The position numbers were made by a program, and so were the translations under genes. DNA of 20,866 nucleotides from positions 1-20,866 of IMG/VR virus record IMGVR_UViG_3300020411_003825, one strand, 5' to 3'. Numbering within the stretch: the first letter of the stretch is position 1; each line of letters starts with the position of its first letter. This document shows, piece by piece, positions 2,506 to 20,866 of this stretch. Source of the DNA: a virus. The notes under the pieces are model-generated. The model searched no databases and was not told the origin of the DNA. It worked only from the letters and a program-made list of their open reading frames with translations.

Positions 2506-3153
2506 TTATAACTTAGAAATAAAGTCAGCAAAAGCATTTAATTTAGTTTCATCTAAACTATTTGCTGAAGCATTTCTAATACTCTTATTATATTTATCTA
2601 TTTCTGTTTCTTTAATTACACCATTATCCCAAATCCACTCTTTACCTTCCATAATACCTTCTACAAAGGCATTTGGAGCAGATGGATCAGCAACAATGTC
2701 TCCCGCAGTTGAGAGATAATAATCATTTCCAACTATACTACCATTTCTACTAGGTGTTAAAGAACCCATTCCTCTAGAAGATACTCCTAAAGTTGCACCT
2801 GCACTAATAAGTTCTCTTACAATTTTACCATTTGGTGTATTTAAAATTTTAGCTTCTCCAATAAAATCATTACCTTCTTTATGTAAATCAGTTATCATAT
2901 GTGAGACTCTATCTAAATTAACTGTTGGGCCATCGGGATGACCAAGTTCACCAAAAGCTCTATTTTTAGTTACATATTCTTTATTATATCTATTAACTTC
3001 ATTTTCTAAAACTTTAAGAGGATAAGTTCTTTTATTTCTATTTTGTTGTTCAGCTTGCATAAAAATTCCACGAATCTTAAATTGCTCCCCGCCCTCTTTT
3101 GTTGTTTCAGAAATATATTCCAATTCTTCAGAAATTTCTGTTATGAGTTTCAT
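2506..3153 (-). CDS. 21: Prohead maturation protease gp21
   Basis: Serine protease of the T4 gp21 family that cleaves the prohead core and shell proteins after L/I-x-E motifs. At 215 aa it matches T4 gp21 (212 aa). Conserved parts are the N-terminal beta region with FKIRGIFMQAEQQNRNKRTYP, the AFGELGHPDGPTVNLDRVSH segment containing the likely catalytic His72, and GATLGVSSRGMGSL with the likely nucleophile Ser125 or Ser126. The C-terminal tail after about residue 180 is Lys- and Asn-rich and may be removed by self-cleavage. The N-terminus contains I-S-E and Y-I-S-E motifs that fit autoprocessing. The ATG has GAGGGAGA upstream and overlaps the gp68 stop as ATGA, implying coupled translation. 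Exact catalytic residue numbering is inferred from motif context. Confidence 0.95.
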   Translation of the reverse strand: MKLITEISEELEYISETTKEGGEQFKIRGIFMQAEQQNRNKRTYPLKVLENEVNRYNKEYVTKNRAFGELGHPDGPTVNLDRVSHMITDLHKEGNDFIGEAKILNTPNGKIVRELISAGATLGVSSRGMGSLTPSRNGSIVGNDYYLSTAGDIVADPSAPNAFVEGIMEGKEWIWDNGVIKETEIDKYNKSIRNASANSLDETKLNAFADFISKL

Positions 3154-3581
3154 TTTTTCTCCCTCATTTTTTTAATTCTTTCTTTTCTTTTAGCAATTAA
3201 ATCCCTATACATTTTTCCCCCAGGTCGAGTGAAAGCTTTCATTTTAGCTTGTTGTGCAGGATTCTTTTTTAACCTATCAACTAATTTTTCAATCTGTTGT
3301 TTTTGTCCAGGACTCGCACTTTGTAATTTAGATGCAGATAAATCTTTTCTTACCCTAAGTTTTAGAGATTGTAAAAATTTTCTCCTAGATTGCTTTCTTA
3401 ATGCTTCGTTTCCACCAGTAGGAATAGATCTCATTTTATTTCTTCTAAGAGCAGCTACTCTTTTTGGTTTTGACCTGGCAAAATGAATTTTTCTTTTAAA
3501 TCTTTGATTAGGTGTTAATGCTTCATCAAAGTCTAATATATTTTCTACTATTTCAGATCTAAAAAATTTAAATGTTTTCAT
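3150..3581 (-). CDS. 68: Prohead core protein gp68-like
   Basis: Very basic 143-aa protein in the position of T4 gene 68 (141 aa), between gp67 and gp21. T4 gp68 is a minor prohead core component affecting head shape. The protein is full of Lys and Arg (KRKIHFARSKPKRVAALRRNKMRS; RKERIKKMREKK at the C-terminus), as expected for a core protein that pairs with acidic gp67 and gp22 or binds DNA. Its start, MKTFKFFRSEIVENIL, resembles the MKTFKEF-type peptide of the accessory genes at 17-20 kb, and its first 15 coding bases are identical to two of them. It begins immediately after the gp67 stop and its own stop overlaps gp21. I assign it mainly by position, length and charge; sequence similarity to T4 gp68 cannot be measured here. 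Confidence 0.75.
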   Translation of the reverse strand: MKTFKFFRSEIVENILDFDEALTPNQRFKRKIHFARSKPKRVAALRRNKMRSIPTGGNEALRKQSRRKFLQSLKLRVRKDLSASKLQSASPGQKQQIEKLVDRLKKNPAQQAKMKAFTRPGGKMYRDLIAKRKERIKKMREKK

Positions 3582-17293: not shown

Positions 17294-18472
17294 CTATTTA
17301 AATCCTAAATCTTTTAATTGATTAATGGTATCAGTAGCACTTGTATGATGAATGCCGATACCACCTTTTGCTCTAAACTCTTTTATATTACCCGCATGAT
17401 CATCAATTAAAACATTAGGTCTTCCATCTCTACCATCTTTAGCAAACTGTTGTTTATCTTGTCTAGAAACTGCTCTCATATCACTCTGTTTTAAATTAAA
17501 ATGTTTTTTCATCCATTTAGTTTTATCACTTGCTGCTTGTTTAGATATATCACCTCTACTTTCTCTAGGTATAGCAGTCAACATAATTGGATTATATTTA
17601 CCAATAAAATTCCAAAGTTTTTTTGCATCTGGCATTAATGGTAATTTAGCAAAAGTGTCTTTTGGAAGATCCGGCCAAAACTTATCCTTAAACCTTGTTC
17701 CTAAAATTTTACCAGTAAAGGCATGAAAATCAGCAATTACTCCATCCATGTCACAATAGATTTGTGGGGTATCAAATTCATCTAATTCAATTTCTTCTCT
17801 CATTTTTAATCTTTTTTCTTTATCAATCCATTTTTTAGCAATATGATTTTGTAAAGGTTCTTGAACTATTGATCTTATCTTAACAAAAACTTTTCTAAAT
17901 ACATCTTCACTAGCATCATTATTATCAACAATAATAAAATTTTTATTACCAAAGTAACTTTGAAATTTTCCAAGATTTTTTTGAACATCTTCCCAACTTG
18001 TTTTTACAATTTTATCTGGTAATGTTCTGGGTCGCATTTGATTTCTTTGTAATGCAACATCAAGAGATGTATTTACAAAAATCATTAATGTATCATATCC
18101 AAGTCCTCGCAATCCTTCTGAAGCTGATTTAATTTTATCAAAATCTTTTCCAGTACCATCAATAATCATTCCAAGTCTTCCATCAACCCATTGTTTCATT
18201 CTCATCTTTGTAAGTTTCTTTGCTTTATCTCTAATGATTTGAGATTTTTCAAAATCTTTTTCATCAAATTTAGTGAAATCCATTCCTAAACCAGATGATT
18301 TTAATTTAAGTTCATATATATCATCTGAATTAACAACTTTCATTCCTAAACCACCTGTCGCTTTCCCAGCAACATATGATTTACCAGAACCTGGGCCACC
18401 TGCTAAAAATATTGCTTTAAATATTGAGGGATCATACATTCCCTCAATCATAAATTCATTAAAAGACTTCAT
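17294..18472 (-). CDS. P-loop kinase fused to HAD phosphatase (Pnkp-like layout)
   Basis: Two-domain protein of 392 aa. The N-terminal kinase of the zeta-toxin/polynucleotide kinase type has Walker A GGPGSGKS (about 25-32), NSDD (48-51), the Walker B-like IIDGTGKD (103-110) and an Arg-rich lid RNQMRPRTLP (143-152). The C-terminal HAD domain has motif I DMDGV (241-245), the motif II Thr in IMLTAIP (about 299), a Lys in DKTKW and motif IV IDDHAGN (356-362). Kinase first, HAD second is the order of T4 Pnkp, but the substrate cannot be told from sequence; DMDGV is also common in phage nucleotidases. It begins MKSFNEFMIEG, a capsid targeting-like peptide. I prefer the ATG at 18472 because that peptide then starts at Met1; an in-frame ATG at 18487 would add five residues. 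The start overlaps the preceding gene. Confidence 0.85.
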   Translation of the reverse strand: MKSFNEFMIEGMYDPSIFKAIFLAGGPGSGKSYVAGKATGGLGMKVVNSDDIYELKLKSSGLGMDFTKFDEKDFEKSQIIRDKAKKLTKMRMKQWVDGRLGMIIDGTGKDFDKIKSASEGLRGLGYDTLMIFVNTSLDVALQRNQMRPRTLPDKIVKTSWEDVQKNLGKFQSYFGNKNFIIVDNNDASEDVFRKVFVKIRSIVQEPLQNHIAKKWIDKEKRLKMREEIELDEFDTPQIYCDMDGVIADFHAFTGKILGTRFKDKFWPDLPKDTFAKLPLMPDAKKLWNFIGKYNPIMLTAIPRESRGDISKQAASDKTKWMKKHFNLKQSDMRAVSRQDKQQFAKDGRDGRPNVLIDDHAGNIKEFRAKGGIGIHHTSATDTINQLKDLGFK

Positions 18473-19043
18473 ACCATTCATCACCATTTTTCTTTGTATA
18501 ATACATACTAGTTTCTATTTTTTCTTCTAATGTAAATTGTTCATCTCTCATTTTTAATAAAAACTTTTGATTCCTTTGCTTTCCTTTATGTAATTTTGAA
18601 AACAAATCTTGAAATTTATTTCCTCTACTATCTACTGAAATACTTTTTCCACCGTGATCAAAATTTGCATGAATTTTTCCATGATGATTACCTGGAGACT
18701 TATTTGTTCCTATTAATGAAAAATCATCATTATCTTTATGAATGACAGAATGTTGATCATATTTTTTGCCCAATTCCATCATGTGTTTTCTTTCAATGTT
18801 TGGAATCATTAAAGATTTTTCTTTTACAAATCCACCCTCTTCTTTATATCCACCTCTCATTTCAATATAACCATGTCCCAATTTTCTAACATGATTTTTC
18901 AACTCAGTAAATCTTTTTTCATTTTCTTCATCTGAATGTTCTTGTCTATGTGGAGACATAATACCAAATTTTGGTGTTTTGTTTACATGATGCATTACTC
19001 TTGATAAACTAGATTCCTGCAATGTTTGTTTAAATGTTTTCAT
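18459..19043 (-). CDS. DUF3293-like protein with capsid targeting-like start
   Basis: A 194-aa protein resembling the DUF3293 family: TPKFGIMSPHRQEHSDEENEKRFTELKNHVRKLGHGYIEMRGGYKE (about 24-69) followed by EKSLMIPNIERKHMMELGKKYDQHSVIHKDNDDFSLIGT (75-113) matches the family pattern of an opening region, an 'E.N..R...L...' helix and a closing 'LG..Y.Q.AVI' unit. The C-terminal third is His-, Lys- and Gly-rich and unlike the family core. It begins MKTFKQTLQESSLS; L-Q-E followed by Ser would suit gp21 cleavage. The family's biochemical role is unknown to me. AAAAGGAAAA precedes the ATG and the start overlaps the stop of the upstream gene as ATGA. The family assignment is from memory of the motif pattern. 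Confidence 0.75.
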   Translation of the reverse strand: MKTFKQTLQESSLSRVMHHVNKTPKFGIMSPHRQEHSDEENEKRFTELKNHVRKLGHGYIEMRGGYKEEGGFVKEKSLMIPNIERKHMMELGKKYDQHSVIHKDNDDFSLIGTNKSPGNHHGKIHANFDHGGKSISVDSRGNKFQDLFSKLHKGKQRNQKFLLKMRDEQFTLEEKIETSMYYTKKNGDEWYEVF

Positions 19044-19354
19044 AATTTTCCTTTTCCAAAATTTGATACATTAATTGGTTTACCTTTTCTATCTGGATTG
19101 CTGTCATGTTTTCTTTTTGCTCTAGTTGCAGCACCTCTTTCTTTTTTAGAAAGTTGTTGTCTTTTTTTCTTTGACATACATTTTGGTTTAGGTCCATCAC
19201 CTTTACCGTCACCATCAGTATCATCTCTAGCACAATCACCTACAACTTTACCTTTTGAGTCTACTCTTTTCCAATCACCGTCAGGATGATCTTTAGAAAA
19301 CCATTTTCTCAAATCTTCTACAAAGACTCCGTATGACTTCAACCTTTTTTCCAT
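19040..19354 (-). CDS. Small basic protein, DUF5872-like
   Basis: A 104-aa basic protein. The region DLRKWFSKDHPDGDWKRVDSKGKVVGDCARDDTDGDGKGDGPKPKCMSKKKRQQLSKKERGAATRAKRKH resembles the short phage family I know as DUF5872 (L.KWF.E.W..I...G....CG......PKC.P..KA..L.K.ER). Two Cys (in GDCARD and PKCMSK) flank an Asp/Gly-rich loop that could bind a metal ion; this is inference. The C-terminal half is Lys- and Arg-rich and may bind nucleic acid. It starts MEKRLKSYGVFVEDLRKWF, so unlike its neighbours it has no MKTFKEF start. It overlaps the 57-aa gene upstream by 16 bases and the DUF3293-like gene downstream by four. AAAGGTGG lies just before the ATG. Confidence 0.75.
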   Translation of the reverse strand: MEKRLKSYGVFVEDLRKWFSKDHPDGDWKRVDSKGKVVGDCARDDTDGDGKGDGPKPKCMSKKKRQQLSKKERGAATRAKRKHDSNPDRKGKPINVSNFGKGKL

Positions 19355-19512
19355 CCACCACCTTTAGATTTATACCACTTTGCTGCCCAACCATTTGCAT
19401 AAGCGGATGGGTAAACATCAAATTTAGATTTTGCTAATGACTTAGCTTTTGACCAAAGTTTAGGATTTGTTGGTTTATTTTCTTCTGAAATGAATTCTTT
19501 AAATGTCACCAT
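19339..19512 (-). CDS. 57-aa small basic protein with capsid targeting-like start
   Basis: A short gene that is easily missed. The ATG at 19512 overlaps the stop of the upstream gene (ATGGTGA) and translation gives MVTFKEFISEENKPTNPK, then LWSKAKSLAKSKFDVYPSAY, then ANGWAAKWYKSKGGGWKKG and a TGA at 19341-19339. The KPTNP.LW..AK..AK.KFDVYPSAYAN.WAAKWYK..GGGW pattern is one I know from many marine phage proteins and small ORFs of unknown function. The first 10 residues match the MKTFKEF...E peptide, with I-S-E directly before Glu as a possible gp21 cleavage site, which would leave a basic, aromatic-rich peptide of 47 residues. It overlaps both neighbours, as coupled genes do. Confidence 0.85.
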   Translation of the reverse strand: MVTFKEFISEENKPTNPKLWSKAKSLAKSKFDVYPSAYANGWAAKWYKSKGGGWKKG

Positions 19513-19778
19513 GCTTTACAACTCCAATATCTTGCTTTAGTTCTTGGTCCAGGGTTATCACAATTATGTCTTGCTCTAAAAGATTTTCTTCTAGCGGGGT
19601 TGGACTTTTTAATTCTCATGTTGGGATCACCGAACTCAACTTTTTTAACATTACCAGTTGATGGATCTTTAACATAAACCTTAGACTTTTTAACATCCCC
19701 CTTCATTTTCTTACCCAAAGGAACGTCTCTACCTTGATACTCTGCTTCAGATATCATATATTCTTTAAATGTTTTCAT
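19506..19778 (-). CDS. Small basic DUF6321-like protein with capsid targeting-like start
   Basis: A 90-aa very basic protein. After the start MKTFKEYMISEAEYQGRDV, the rest (LGKKMKGDVKKSKVYVKDP, NVKKVEFGDPNMRIKKSNPARRKSFRARHNCDNPGPRTKARYWSCKAW) matches a short conserved family of phage and bacterial proteins I know as DUF6321, function unknown. Two Cys and one His in RARHNCDNPG and YWSCKAW might form a small metal or disulphide site. I-S-E followed by Ala is an ideal L/I-x-E cleavage site for gp21, removing 11 residues. AAGGAAATAAAA before the ATG is supplied by the end of the upstream gene. High Lys/Arg content would suit a DNA-associated internal virion protein, but this is inference. Confidence 0.82.
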   Translation of the reverse strand: MKTFKEYMISEAEYQGRDVPLGKKMKGDVKKSKVYVKDPSTGNVKKVEFGDPNMRIKKSNPARRKSFRARHNCDNPGPRTKARYWSCKAW

Positions 19779-19780
19779 TT

Positions 19781-20866
19781 TTATTTCCTTACATTGGCAA
19801 CTGAATCTCCAGGTTTCCCTGTCTTATTTAATATTGATACATGATATATTCTGTTTGGGTCAGGATTTGATTGAATCAAATCTGTAACATAATCCCTCAT
19901 CTCACTTTGTTGACGTATAGTAGTGTACCACGATATTCTATCATTGTCAACTATTTTTTGTGGCTTGTTGAAATGTATTGGAAAATCAACATCAGAAAAA
20001 GTCGCTCCTTTAAATTCTGCTTTCATTTTTTTCCACGCATTTCCAGAAGCTAATGTTATATGTAAATCTTTATCTTCTAATGGTTTCAAATCTGGTTCTC
20101 TTTCCAAAACCATTTTCTGCATTCGCTTTATTATATTTATCTCTTTTTGTTTTAACTTATATTTGAGAACACTTTCAACTTTTACTTCTTCATTCATTTT
20201 AATTTGTGACATTAATGATTTTTTATCATTTTTACCTGTCTTGACTGCGTGTTTTAATAACATTTTTAAAGCATCACCAATTTGTCTACCTTTTAATCCT
20301 GCTTGTGAAAGATCTCTACCATCTACTCCTAAATTTTTAAGTGAAGTTGGTTTACCTTTTCTTCTCATATCTGCTAATATCATTGATAAAGTTTTTTGTC
20401 TTTTAGTTTTTAAATATTCATCAATATTTTTTATTGCAGAAGGATGGCTAGAAGTATATTGTATTAATTCAAATTCATTCTTTAATATGTCTGGATTATG
20501 AATTACCATAACAACACCTTCTATTGATTTTTTTATTTCATTAGAAATTCTCATTGTTTTCTGTGCATTTTCACCAGCTAACCATTTATAATCTTTTAGT
20601 AAAATTCCTAAAAAAGCAGGAAACGCTGACTTTTCTAATTTATCCATCGCATCAAAATCAATATCTTTTATTCCCCTAAATATATAATTCATCAATCCTG
20701 TTTTAATCATCAATTTAATACCTTTACTTGGTACAGTAGATTTTGTAAACATTTTTATAAATTCTTCTTGGAATCTATCAGGAGAAACAGTTGTTATATT
20801 TTTTGCTTGTTTTTTAATTTCTCTTTCAGTATTAGATTCTAAATTAAAGTCAAATCTCGCAGCAAA
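19781..20866 (-). CDS. CCA/poly(A)-type nucleotidyltransferase fused to 2H phosphoesterase (5' end outside window)
   Basis: The reading frame is open to the right edge, so the true start and catalytic palm domain lie outside. Visible part: 361 aa. The first 38 residues (FAARFDFNLESNTEREIKKQAKNITTVSPDRFQEEFIK) match the neck of class II CCA-adding enzymes and poly(A) polymerases ('R.AARF.F.....T........I..VS.ER...E'). At about residues 177-205 of the visible part, LGVDGRDLSQAGLKGRQIGDALKMLLKHAV matches their body/tail ('GxDL...G.kG..IG..L'). After a linker, the C-terminal 130 residues carry two motifs 73 residues apart, LHITLASG (H-x-T) and YHVSILNKTGKPGDS (H-x-S), the signature of 2H phosphoesterases. 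No stop separates the parts; an internal ATG at 20197 could also give the 2H part alone. It is the first visible gene of the accessory operon. Confidence 0.82.
   Translation of the reverse strand, partial: FAARFDFNLESNTEREIKKQAKNITTVSPDRFQEEFIKMFTKSTVPSKGIKLMIKTGLMNYIFRGIKDIDFDAMDKLEKSAFPAFLGILLKDYKWLAGENAQKTMRISNEIKKSIEGVVMVIHNPDILKNEFELIQYTSSHPSAIKNIDEYLKTKRQKTLSMILADMRRKGKPTSLKNLGVDGRDLSQAGLKGRQIGDALKMLLKHAVKTGKNDKKSLMSQIKMNEEVKVESVLKYKLKQKEINIIKRMQKMVLEREPDLKPLEDKDLHITLASGNAWKKMKAEFKGATFSDVDFPIHFNKPQKIVDNDRISWYTTIRQQSEMRDYVTDLIQSNPDPNRIYHVSILNKTGKPGDSVANVRK

Follow-up and report, generated by a model that had tools for sequence, protein, structure and literature searches.

A predicted operon of capsid-targeted, gp21-processed cargo enzymes in a marine T4-like phage

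The DNA considered here, virus record IMGVR_UViG_3300020411_003825 of IMG/VR, is a 20,866-base fragment of a T4-like phage; it was analysed over its whole length, referred to below as the window, and the record ends at the window edges. We conclude that the accessory operon at positions 17294–20866 is very probably a late operon of capsid cargo in a Kyanoviridae-type marine T4-like phage, encoding enzymes that are targeted to the head by an N-terminal tag, trimmed by the prohead protease gp21 and injected into the host. Each cargo protein would start with a capsid targeting sequence (CTS) of the T4 type, 9–11 residues long. Through the half of this element that is centred on aromatic residues the protein would bind to the prohead core; at the other end, hydrophobic-x-Glu, it would be cut by the phage's own gp21 at head maturation. 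The trimmed enzymes would stay in the head and enter the host with the DNA. Further gp21 sites are predicted between the domains of fused relatives and of the kinase-nucleotidase encoded in the window, so that one tag could package one polypeptide that is later cut into separate enzymes. The payload, which comprises an S-adenosylmethionine (SAM)-lyase-like protein, a Pnkp-like kinase/phosphatase and a protein with CCA/poly(A)-polymerase-like and 2H-like parts, would act in the first minutes of infection. An earlier note, made from the letters of this stretch, had proposed a capsid-targeting peptide cut by gp21 and an internal-protein cargo operon. That proposal is supported by four independent lines of evidence, namely the geometry of the T4 peptide, the conservation of the cleavage boundary, the reuse of the element in fused proteins and mass spectrometry (MS) of cyanophage virions, from which we infer cleavage, injection and function in this phage.

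The tag and its T4 geometry

In T4, targeting has been mapped to residues 4 and 7 of the peptide and processing to residues 8 and 10 (PMC9026906). As read from the T4 genome, IPII and IPIII begin with MKTYQEFIAE↓A (the arrow marks the cut) and IPI begins with MKTFKEF, its ITE↓A site lying later than that of the other two, which bears out the likeness to T4 internal proteins drawn in the earlier note. The five window starts quoted there are all present as described, on the minus strand. A fixed pattern was taken from the IPIII geometry: an aromatic residue at about position 4, a large or hydrophobic one at about position 7 and L/I/M-x-E at positions 8–10, with a shift of one allowed. It was drawn up after T4 and the window had been seen, and the cyanophage proteomes discussed below provide the independent test. 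The pattern matches exactly four of the 23 window genes tested, those starting at 19778, 19512, 19043 and 18472. T4-type targeting peptides have about 10–19 residues, with aromatics at positions 4 and 7; both aromatics are found in 19778, 19512 and 18472, and 19043 has F4 but T7.

When the same pattern was applied to 860 non-redundant genes from related loci (cited below by L numbers), 32 matches were obtained, versus 5.4 ± 2.3 expected from 50 codon shuffles of those genes (maximum 11); the tag pattern is therefore present beyond chance. A 50-kb stretch of T4 scanned in the same way yielded IPII and IPIII and, as a single false positive, gene e. IMG/VR was scanned with a stricter DNA pattern encoding MKTFK[EQ][FY][LIM]xE, which gave at least 129 matches. 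Of the 129 listed, two are cut by contig ends; the 127 others all start open reading frames (ORFs) 41 codons or more in length. Tagged proteins found outside the window include an ADP-ribosyltransferase, a zeta kinase, a glucosaminidase, a lytic transglycolase-like protein and DUF6267 proteins. About one third of the strict matches among those listed (L109:6420-7010 and ∼45 similar ones) form a single family of ∼190 aa with the consensus MKTFKEYL[TASV]E↓[SN]KK.Y.FK[IV]KVAGELPE.F... and no Pfam match.

The identity of the first 15 bases at 19778, 19043 and 3581, to which the earlier note drew attention, is confirmed: ATGAAAACATTTAAA occurs at these three starts and nowhere else in the window. 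T4 ipI, in which the MKTFKEF start is encoded by ATGAAAACATTTAAAGAATTT, shares the same 15 bases. The suggestion was that recombination could exchange cargo cassettes at such repeated start DNA, and cargo modules are indeed gained and lost between relatives, L027 for example being without P0006 and P0001–P0003 (the genes are described below). However, the identity is unremarkable because codon bias predicts it, the codon usage of the window genome giving a probability of 0.40 that MKTFK is spelled identically. The nearest relative spells the start of its P0004 gene differently (ATGAAAACTTTTAAA), and the exact window spelling is used by only 16 of the 129 IMG/VR matches listed, synonymous spellings being dominant. 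It is therefore the peptide, not the DNA, that is conserved. A DNA-level meaning of the repeat was rejected as unnecessary, and we give cassette exchange at these starts the least credence of all the explanations weighed here, amounting to very little.

Predicted cleavage boundaries and domain junctions

The tags of relatives vary in sequence and length, and a Glu with Leu or Ile two residues before it stays directly in front of the conserved protein body. Strict [LI]xE stands at this boundary in 70 of 80 sequences from five unrelated module families, 11 of 15 from the HAD-domain family among them, the background in cargo bodies being 0.45% per position; the counts include related sequences and were thinned by dropping near-identical bodies with identical upstream residues. 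The search of relatives that the earlier note had called for thus reveals a widespread peptide with a conserved [LI]-x-E position, and the I-S-E and L-Q-E that it had placed correctly in three starts are kept as [LI]xE in those families (14/18, 19/20 and 12/12).

All cargo genes lie on the minus strand. P0001 (19506–19778), a small basic protein of 90 aa belonging to phrog_7595, starts with the CTS MKTFKEYMISE (19746–19778), for which a gp21 cut is predicted at ISE↓AEYQG; its relatives have IAE, ITE, LQE, LEE or IEE before AEYQG, 14 of 18 being strict [LI]xE. The CTS of P0002 (19339–19512; 57 aa, DUF5872-like with E 1.2e-4, below the Pfam cutoff) is MVTFKEFISE (19483–19512), with a predicted cut at ISE↓ENKP. 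Strict [LI]xE precedes K/ENxPTNP in 19 of 20 relatives of this protein, including copies of the domain inside longer proteins. P0004 (18459–19043; 194 aa) begins with MKTFKQTLQE (19014–19043), predicted to be cut at LQE↓SSLSR. Its relatives carry LQE, IDE, LEE, LVE, IHE, INE or IQE before SSLSR, strict [LI]xE being found in all 12, one of which keeps it despite a 3-residue insertion upstream in the tag. Residue 7 of P0004 is Thr, where T4 targeting wants an aromatic residue; distant members of the family have Phe. P0005 (17294–18472; 392 aa), which joins a P-loop kinase of the zeta/AAA_33 type to a HAD 5'-nucleotidase-like phosphatase, starts with MKSFNEFMIE (18443–18472) and has its predicted cut at MIE↓GMYDP. 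Met occupies P3 in the window protein and Leu or Ile in relatives, E10 and G11 are invariant, and [LI]xE precedes G.YDP in 14 of 15 relatives of the kinase.

Two further tags can be added to those of the earlier note, which had missed the first. In P0003 (19040–19354; 104 aa, DUF6321-type according to the annotation of a cyanophage relative) a CTS-like element, MKSYGVFVE↓DLRKWF (19316–19342), is read from an in-frame TTG; in relatives, ATG-initiated MKTYRVYKE, MKSFKEYLTE or MTYDEFRE precedes the same DLR.WF body. P1 is Glu in 25 of 32 members of this family; a strict [LI] at P3 is found in only 5 of 32, P3 usually being Phe or Tyr. P0006 (19781–20866), the poly(A)/CCA polymerase-like C-terminal part of a protein followed by a 2H-like domain, is truncated by the window edge, and its tag is seen in a complete relative, which starts MRKFKNYIIE↓SNVSHALKP.

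The same sites recur where domains are fused. One 986-residue ORF in L039 has YLEE↓KNVPTNP, NISE↓DLRKWF and QLAE↓GINDP at its junctions, and TLTE↓GVHDK separates fused domains in L080. Whole tags are also found internally in fused relatives, SQTFKEYFELDE↓FDNPQIYC in L015 (TFKEYFELDE↓FDNP) and LKTFKQHLEE↓ATYQG in L080. In the window, a predicted internal gp21 site, IELDE↓FDTP (17777–17791, at E232), separates the kinase domain of P0005 from its nucleotidase domain. In the AlphaFold model of this protein (mean pLDDT 78.5) E232 falls in a linker predicted to be unstructured, residues 224–234 with pLDDT < 50, between two confident domains, and stand-alone HAD relatives start with MKKFRDYLVE↓FDAPTIYCDMDG (MKKFRDYLVE↓FDAP). 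P0006 likewise has a candidate junction, M-N-E↓EVKVES (20189–20197), before its C-terminal domain, the counterpart of which in L036 is a CTS-headed gene of its own (LGFKNFLKE↓QVEVES) in a locus where some twelve tagged genes follow one another.

P0005 and P0006 adjoin head and tail genes and are multi-domain in the manner of polyvalent proteins, each with two domains (kinase and HAD; poly(A) polymerase and 2H-like); larger fusions occur in L024, L039, L040 and L080. The predicted gp21 sites between the domains of fused proteins, E232 included, suggest polyprotein cargo cut by gp21 at domain junctions. We tentatively propose, as a possibility to which we assign somewhat less than an even chance, that marine T4-like phages carry capsid-targeted polyproteins headed by one tag and separated by gp21 in the prohead, and that the window phage would in this way deliver a SAM lyase and a tRNA/RNA-repair kit (5'-kinase, phosphatase, CCA/poly(A) polymerase and 2H phosphoesterase) before phage expression.

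Tagged proteins in cyanophage virions

The proteome of cyanophage S-CREM2 lists 52 virion proteins (PMC10665884). The strict CTS pattern occurs in 3 of the 219 annotated S-CREM2 proteins, and all three were detected by MS in virions (p = 0.013 with all proteins counted, 0.0027 when the test is confined to the non-structural ones). These are the SAM hydrolase ORF6 (MKDFDSFLEE...LEE↓SSLSR), which is a homologue of P0004, the APH-like kinase ORF14 (VKRFDAFLTE↓E) and the cytidylyltransferase ORF154 (MKNFSSFLTE↓A). Tagged starts are also borne by virion-detected cytidylyltransferase/NMNAT proteins of S-SZBM1 (MRFRQFIIE↓A; PMC9146016), S-SCSM1 (MKSFLQFLKE↓A; PMC9602691) and S-SM1 (MKKFSAFLNE↓A; PMC3037559). 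In S-CREM2 ORF12, a Cas9-like virion protein (L084:7704-10313), residues ∼18–25 form a CTS-like RFASFMAE↓A; the annotated start is MTSRWSNWSTGSDKKPLRFASFMAEAA, and translation may really begin farther downstream, in which case the Cas9-like nuclease would be a tagged capsid cargo.

These data bear on an alternative in which the shared start (ATGAAAAC...) is translation-friendly or typical of the lineage only, the enzymes acting in the producing cell and reaching virion preparations as contaminants. Initiation in an AT-rich genome benefits from A-rich starts, codon bias accounts for the identical 15 bases, and the authors of the proteomes themselves name contamination as possible. However, the peptide and the [LI]xE downstream of it persist through synonymous changes of spelling, the same element is found inside fused proteins, where the translation start is irrelevant, and in S-CREM2 all three proteins singled out by the tag are virion proteins. 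Such an origin of the shared start appears to us highly unlikely.

Several observations nevertheless weigh against reading the operon as capsid cargo. The S-CREM2 and S-SCSM1 authors consider contamination of CsCl preparations by non-structural proteins possible (PMC10665884, PMC9602691), and the tagged proteins _191 and _192 of S-SZBM1 and ORF30 of S-SCSM1, all of ≤165 aa, went undetected in the virion proteomes. The literature searched contained no virion data for HTVC008M, Melnitz or the phage studied here. Homologues in HTVC008M have degenerate tags, weak or shifted ones, or none, and tag conservation is therefore lineage-dependent. Within the window, P0004 is without an aromatic residue 7 and P0003 has Phe or Tyr, not Leu or Ile, at P3; cleavage at the internal sites is a prediction from sequence.

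A small tagged family, MK[TS]FK[SQ]F[LMI].E↓[SA][VI]NISGDFNG, recurs in cyanophages; its members include S-SZBM1 _191 (L088–L091), S-SCSM1 ORF30 (L215:44215-44535) and L116:755, and it was undetected in two virion proteomes.

The predicted payload, the head genes and related systems

P0004 scores above both Pfam cutoffs, for PF23780 (S-AdoMet_lyase; 35.6 bits, cutoff 28) and for PF11697 (DUF3293; 40.8 bits, cutoff 25). Its residues G64-x-Y66, E75-x-S77 and Q97-x-S99 are invariant in close relatives and, compared by eye, match G56, Y58, E69, S71 and Q104 of Svi3-3 in order and spacing; the position of Svi3-3 E105 is occupied by His. A PDB sequence search with P0004 gave no match, and its AlphaFold model (pLDDT 49) was too poor to serve as a test of the SAM-lyase fold. 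It is established for T3 that a SAM lyase starves methylation-dependent restriction (PMC7877911). With the P0005 model, the best matches in a PDB fold search were T4 polynucleotide kinase/phosphatase (2ia5/1ltq) and the Pnkp1/Rnl/Hen1 complex; they cover both domains with E of about 1e-5, but the TM-scores are low (0.2–0.3). The nearest Pfam family of the HAD part is NT5C, below its cutoff. The C-terminal domain of P0006 has a conserved HxT...HxS and a sub-threshold Pfam match to the 2'-5' RNA ligase superfamily (E 0.0078), and we regard its assignment to the 2H group as a lead only. Judged by these similarities, the payload most likely works as infection begins, countering restriction and defences that cleave RNA. 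Outside the window, DUF6267 proteins with a conserved, KxDG ligase-like KWDGAP are often CTS-headed and adjoin other cargo genes (L035:5620-6843, L007:4818-6050 and L190:4820-6031). We do not claim them as RNA ligases, a PDB profile search having given nothing relevant.

The head genes occupy the end of the window opposite to the operon. On the minus strand there are genes for gp23, gp22 (identified by the T4_CASP profile, E 1e-70), gp21, proteins in the gp68 and gp67 positions, and further head, tail and terminase proteins. The prohead core serine protease gp21 (2506–3153; Peptidase_S77, E 2.3e-36) is the predicted processing enzyme, and the cognate gp21-type protease that accompanies T4-type CTS internal proteins is thus present in the window. 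A predicted maturation site of gp23, LSE↓SSPS (1023–1031, at E55), follows the same rule as the cargo sites; the T4 gp23 counterpart is FLTE↓AEIGG.

The gp68-position core protein (3150–3581) starts with MKTFKFFRSE. The claim of the earlier note that this protein shares the tag stands for the targeting half and fails for the cleavage site, as R-S-E occupies residues 8–10; it was rejected as a sixth full CTS and may share only the core-binding half. A gp68-position protein of another locus starts with MKTFRIFKDE (L033:3867-4241), so that here too a scaffold-core protein bears the tag's targeting half. These starts hint that the tag is a mimic of a contact made in core assembly.

The MKTFKFF of the core protein also lends something to a different explanation, in which the peptide brings its bearers into the prohead core to serve there, in the manner of gp67 and gp68, as part of the scaffold or core. 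They would then contribute to head assembly or to condensing the DNA and would not be injected effectors; T4 IPIII helps head assembly (PMC9026906), and the small size and basic character of P0001 to P0003 fit such a role. Against this, P0004, P0005 and P0006 retain intact enzyme signatures, tagged relatives such as the ADP-ribosyltransferase, the glucosaminidase and the SAM lyase have no plausible core role, and gene content varies freely among close relatives. We therefore consider a role as core components unlikely and favour injected cargo.

The targeting principle is that of the T4 internal proteins. The window tags resemble those of IPI–IPIII in the aromatic residues 4 and 7, the hydrophobic residue 8 and Glu 10, in length and in the 15 bases common to ipI, and the two systems also share a cognate S77 protease in the genome and dispensable, variable cargo bodies. 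They differ in that the window cargo, known here from sequence, consists mainly of enzymes, is encoded in one operon and includes fusions in which several gp21 sites are predicted. T4 Alt is an injected ADP-ribosyltransferase cut by gp21 at both ends. It is likewise an enzymatic, injected and gp21-processed cargo, and a CTS-headed ADP-ribosyltransferase is present in the wider set (L131); the window itself has other enzyme activities and no ADP-ribosyltransferase. Virions of S-CREM2, S-SCSM1, S-SZBM1 and S-SM1 contain a SAM hydrolase or cytidylyltransferase/NMNAT with the same tag, whereas the available parts of those papers, which concern phages of cyanobacteria, note the presence of these enzymes without a targeting signal or processing.

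Polyvalent proteins are multi-domain injected effectors whose processing has been ascribed to zincin metallopeptidases (Iyer et al. 2017; PMC5512222). They too are thought to be packaged and injected and share domain types with the tagged set (ART-PolyVal), whereas here prohead-protease sites are predicted at the junctions and short CTS-headed single-domain versions coexist with the fusions. The DarB/Dar antirestriction proteins of phage P1 also show N-terminal capsid targeting of antirestriction cargo, with unrelated sequences and head, a longer signal and no [LI]xE tag. Ejection proteins of SPN3US and phiKZ are head proteins that lose their propeptides to an S77-related protease and are ejected into the host, but these propeptides are mostly >100 residues long and the cleavage motif is a different one.

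Reviews have already proposed that evolution uses the CTS as a means of getting diverse proteins into the capsid (PMC9026906, PMC3012670). In the limited literature searched we found no paper that describes the tag for marine T4-like phages, connects it with cyanophage virion enzymes or reports gp21 sites where the domains of injected proteins meet. If the interpretation as injected cargo is correct, a 10-residue rule would predict from the sequence by itself which genes of unknown role in the abundant marine T4-like phages encode virion cargo, and would explain the recurrence in cyanophage virions of SAM hydrolase and NMNAT, which the authors could not tell from contamination. The internal-protein system of T4 would then extend from a few coliphage anti-restriction proteins to a broad, exchangeable enzyme payload of ocean phages, with a possible polyprotein mode testable by mass spectrometry, by which the virus brings ready-made enzymes into the infected cell.

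Two minor observations concern the operon in relatives. Among cultured phages, the closest matches of the window kinase gene are in methylophage Melnitz and pelagiphage HTVC008M, both Kyanoviridae. In Melnitz-1 (L003:14603-15902) the kinase/HAD region is annotated as several short coding sequences, and the gene may be split or miscalled because the tblastn match spans two pieces and three features. L027 lacks the upstream cargo genes, and there a near-consensus sigma-70-like site (TTGACA, 17 bases, TATGAT; L027:9940-9980) directly precedes the CTS-headed SAM-lyase-like gene.

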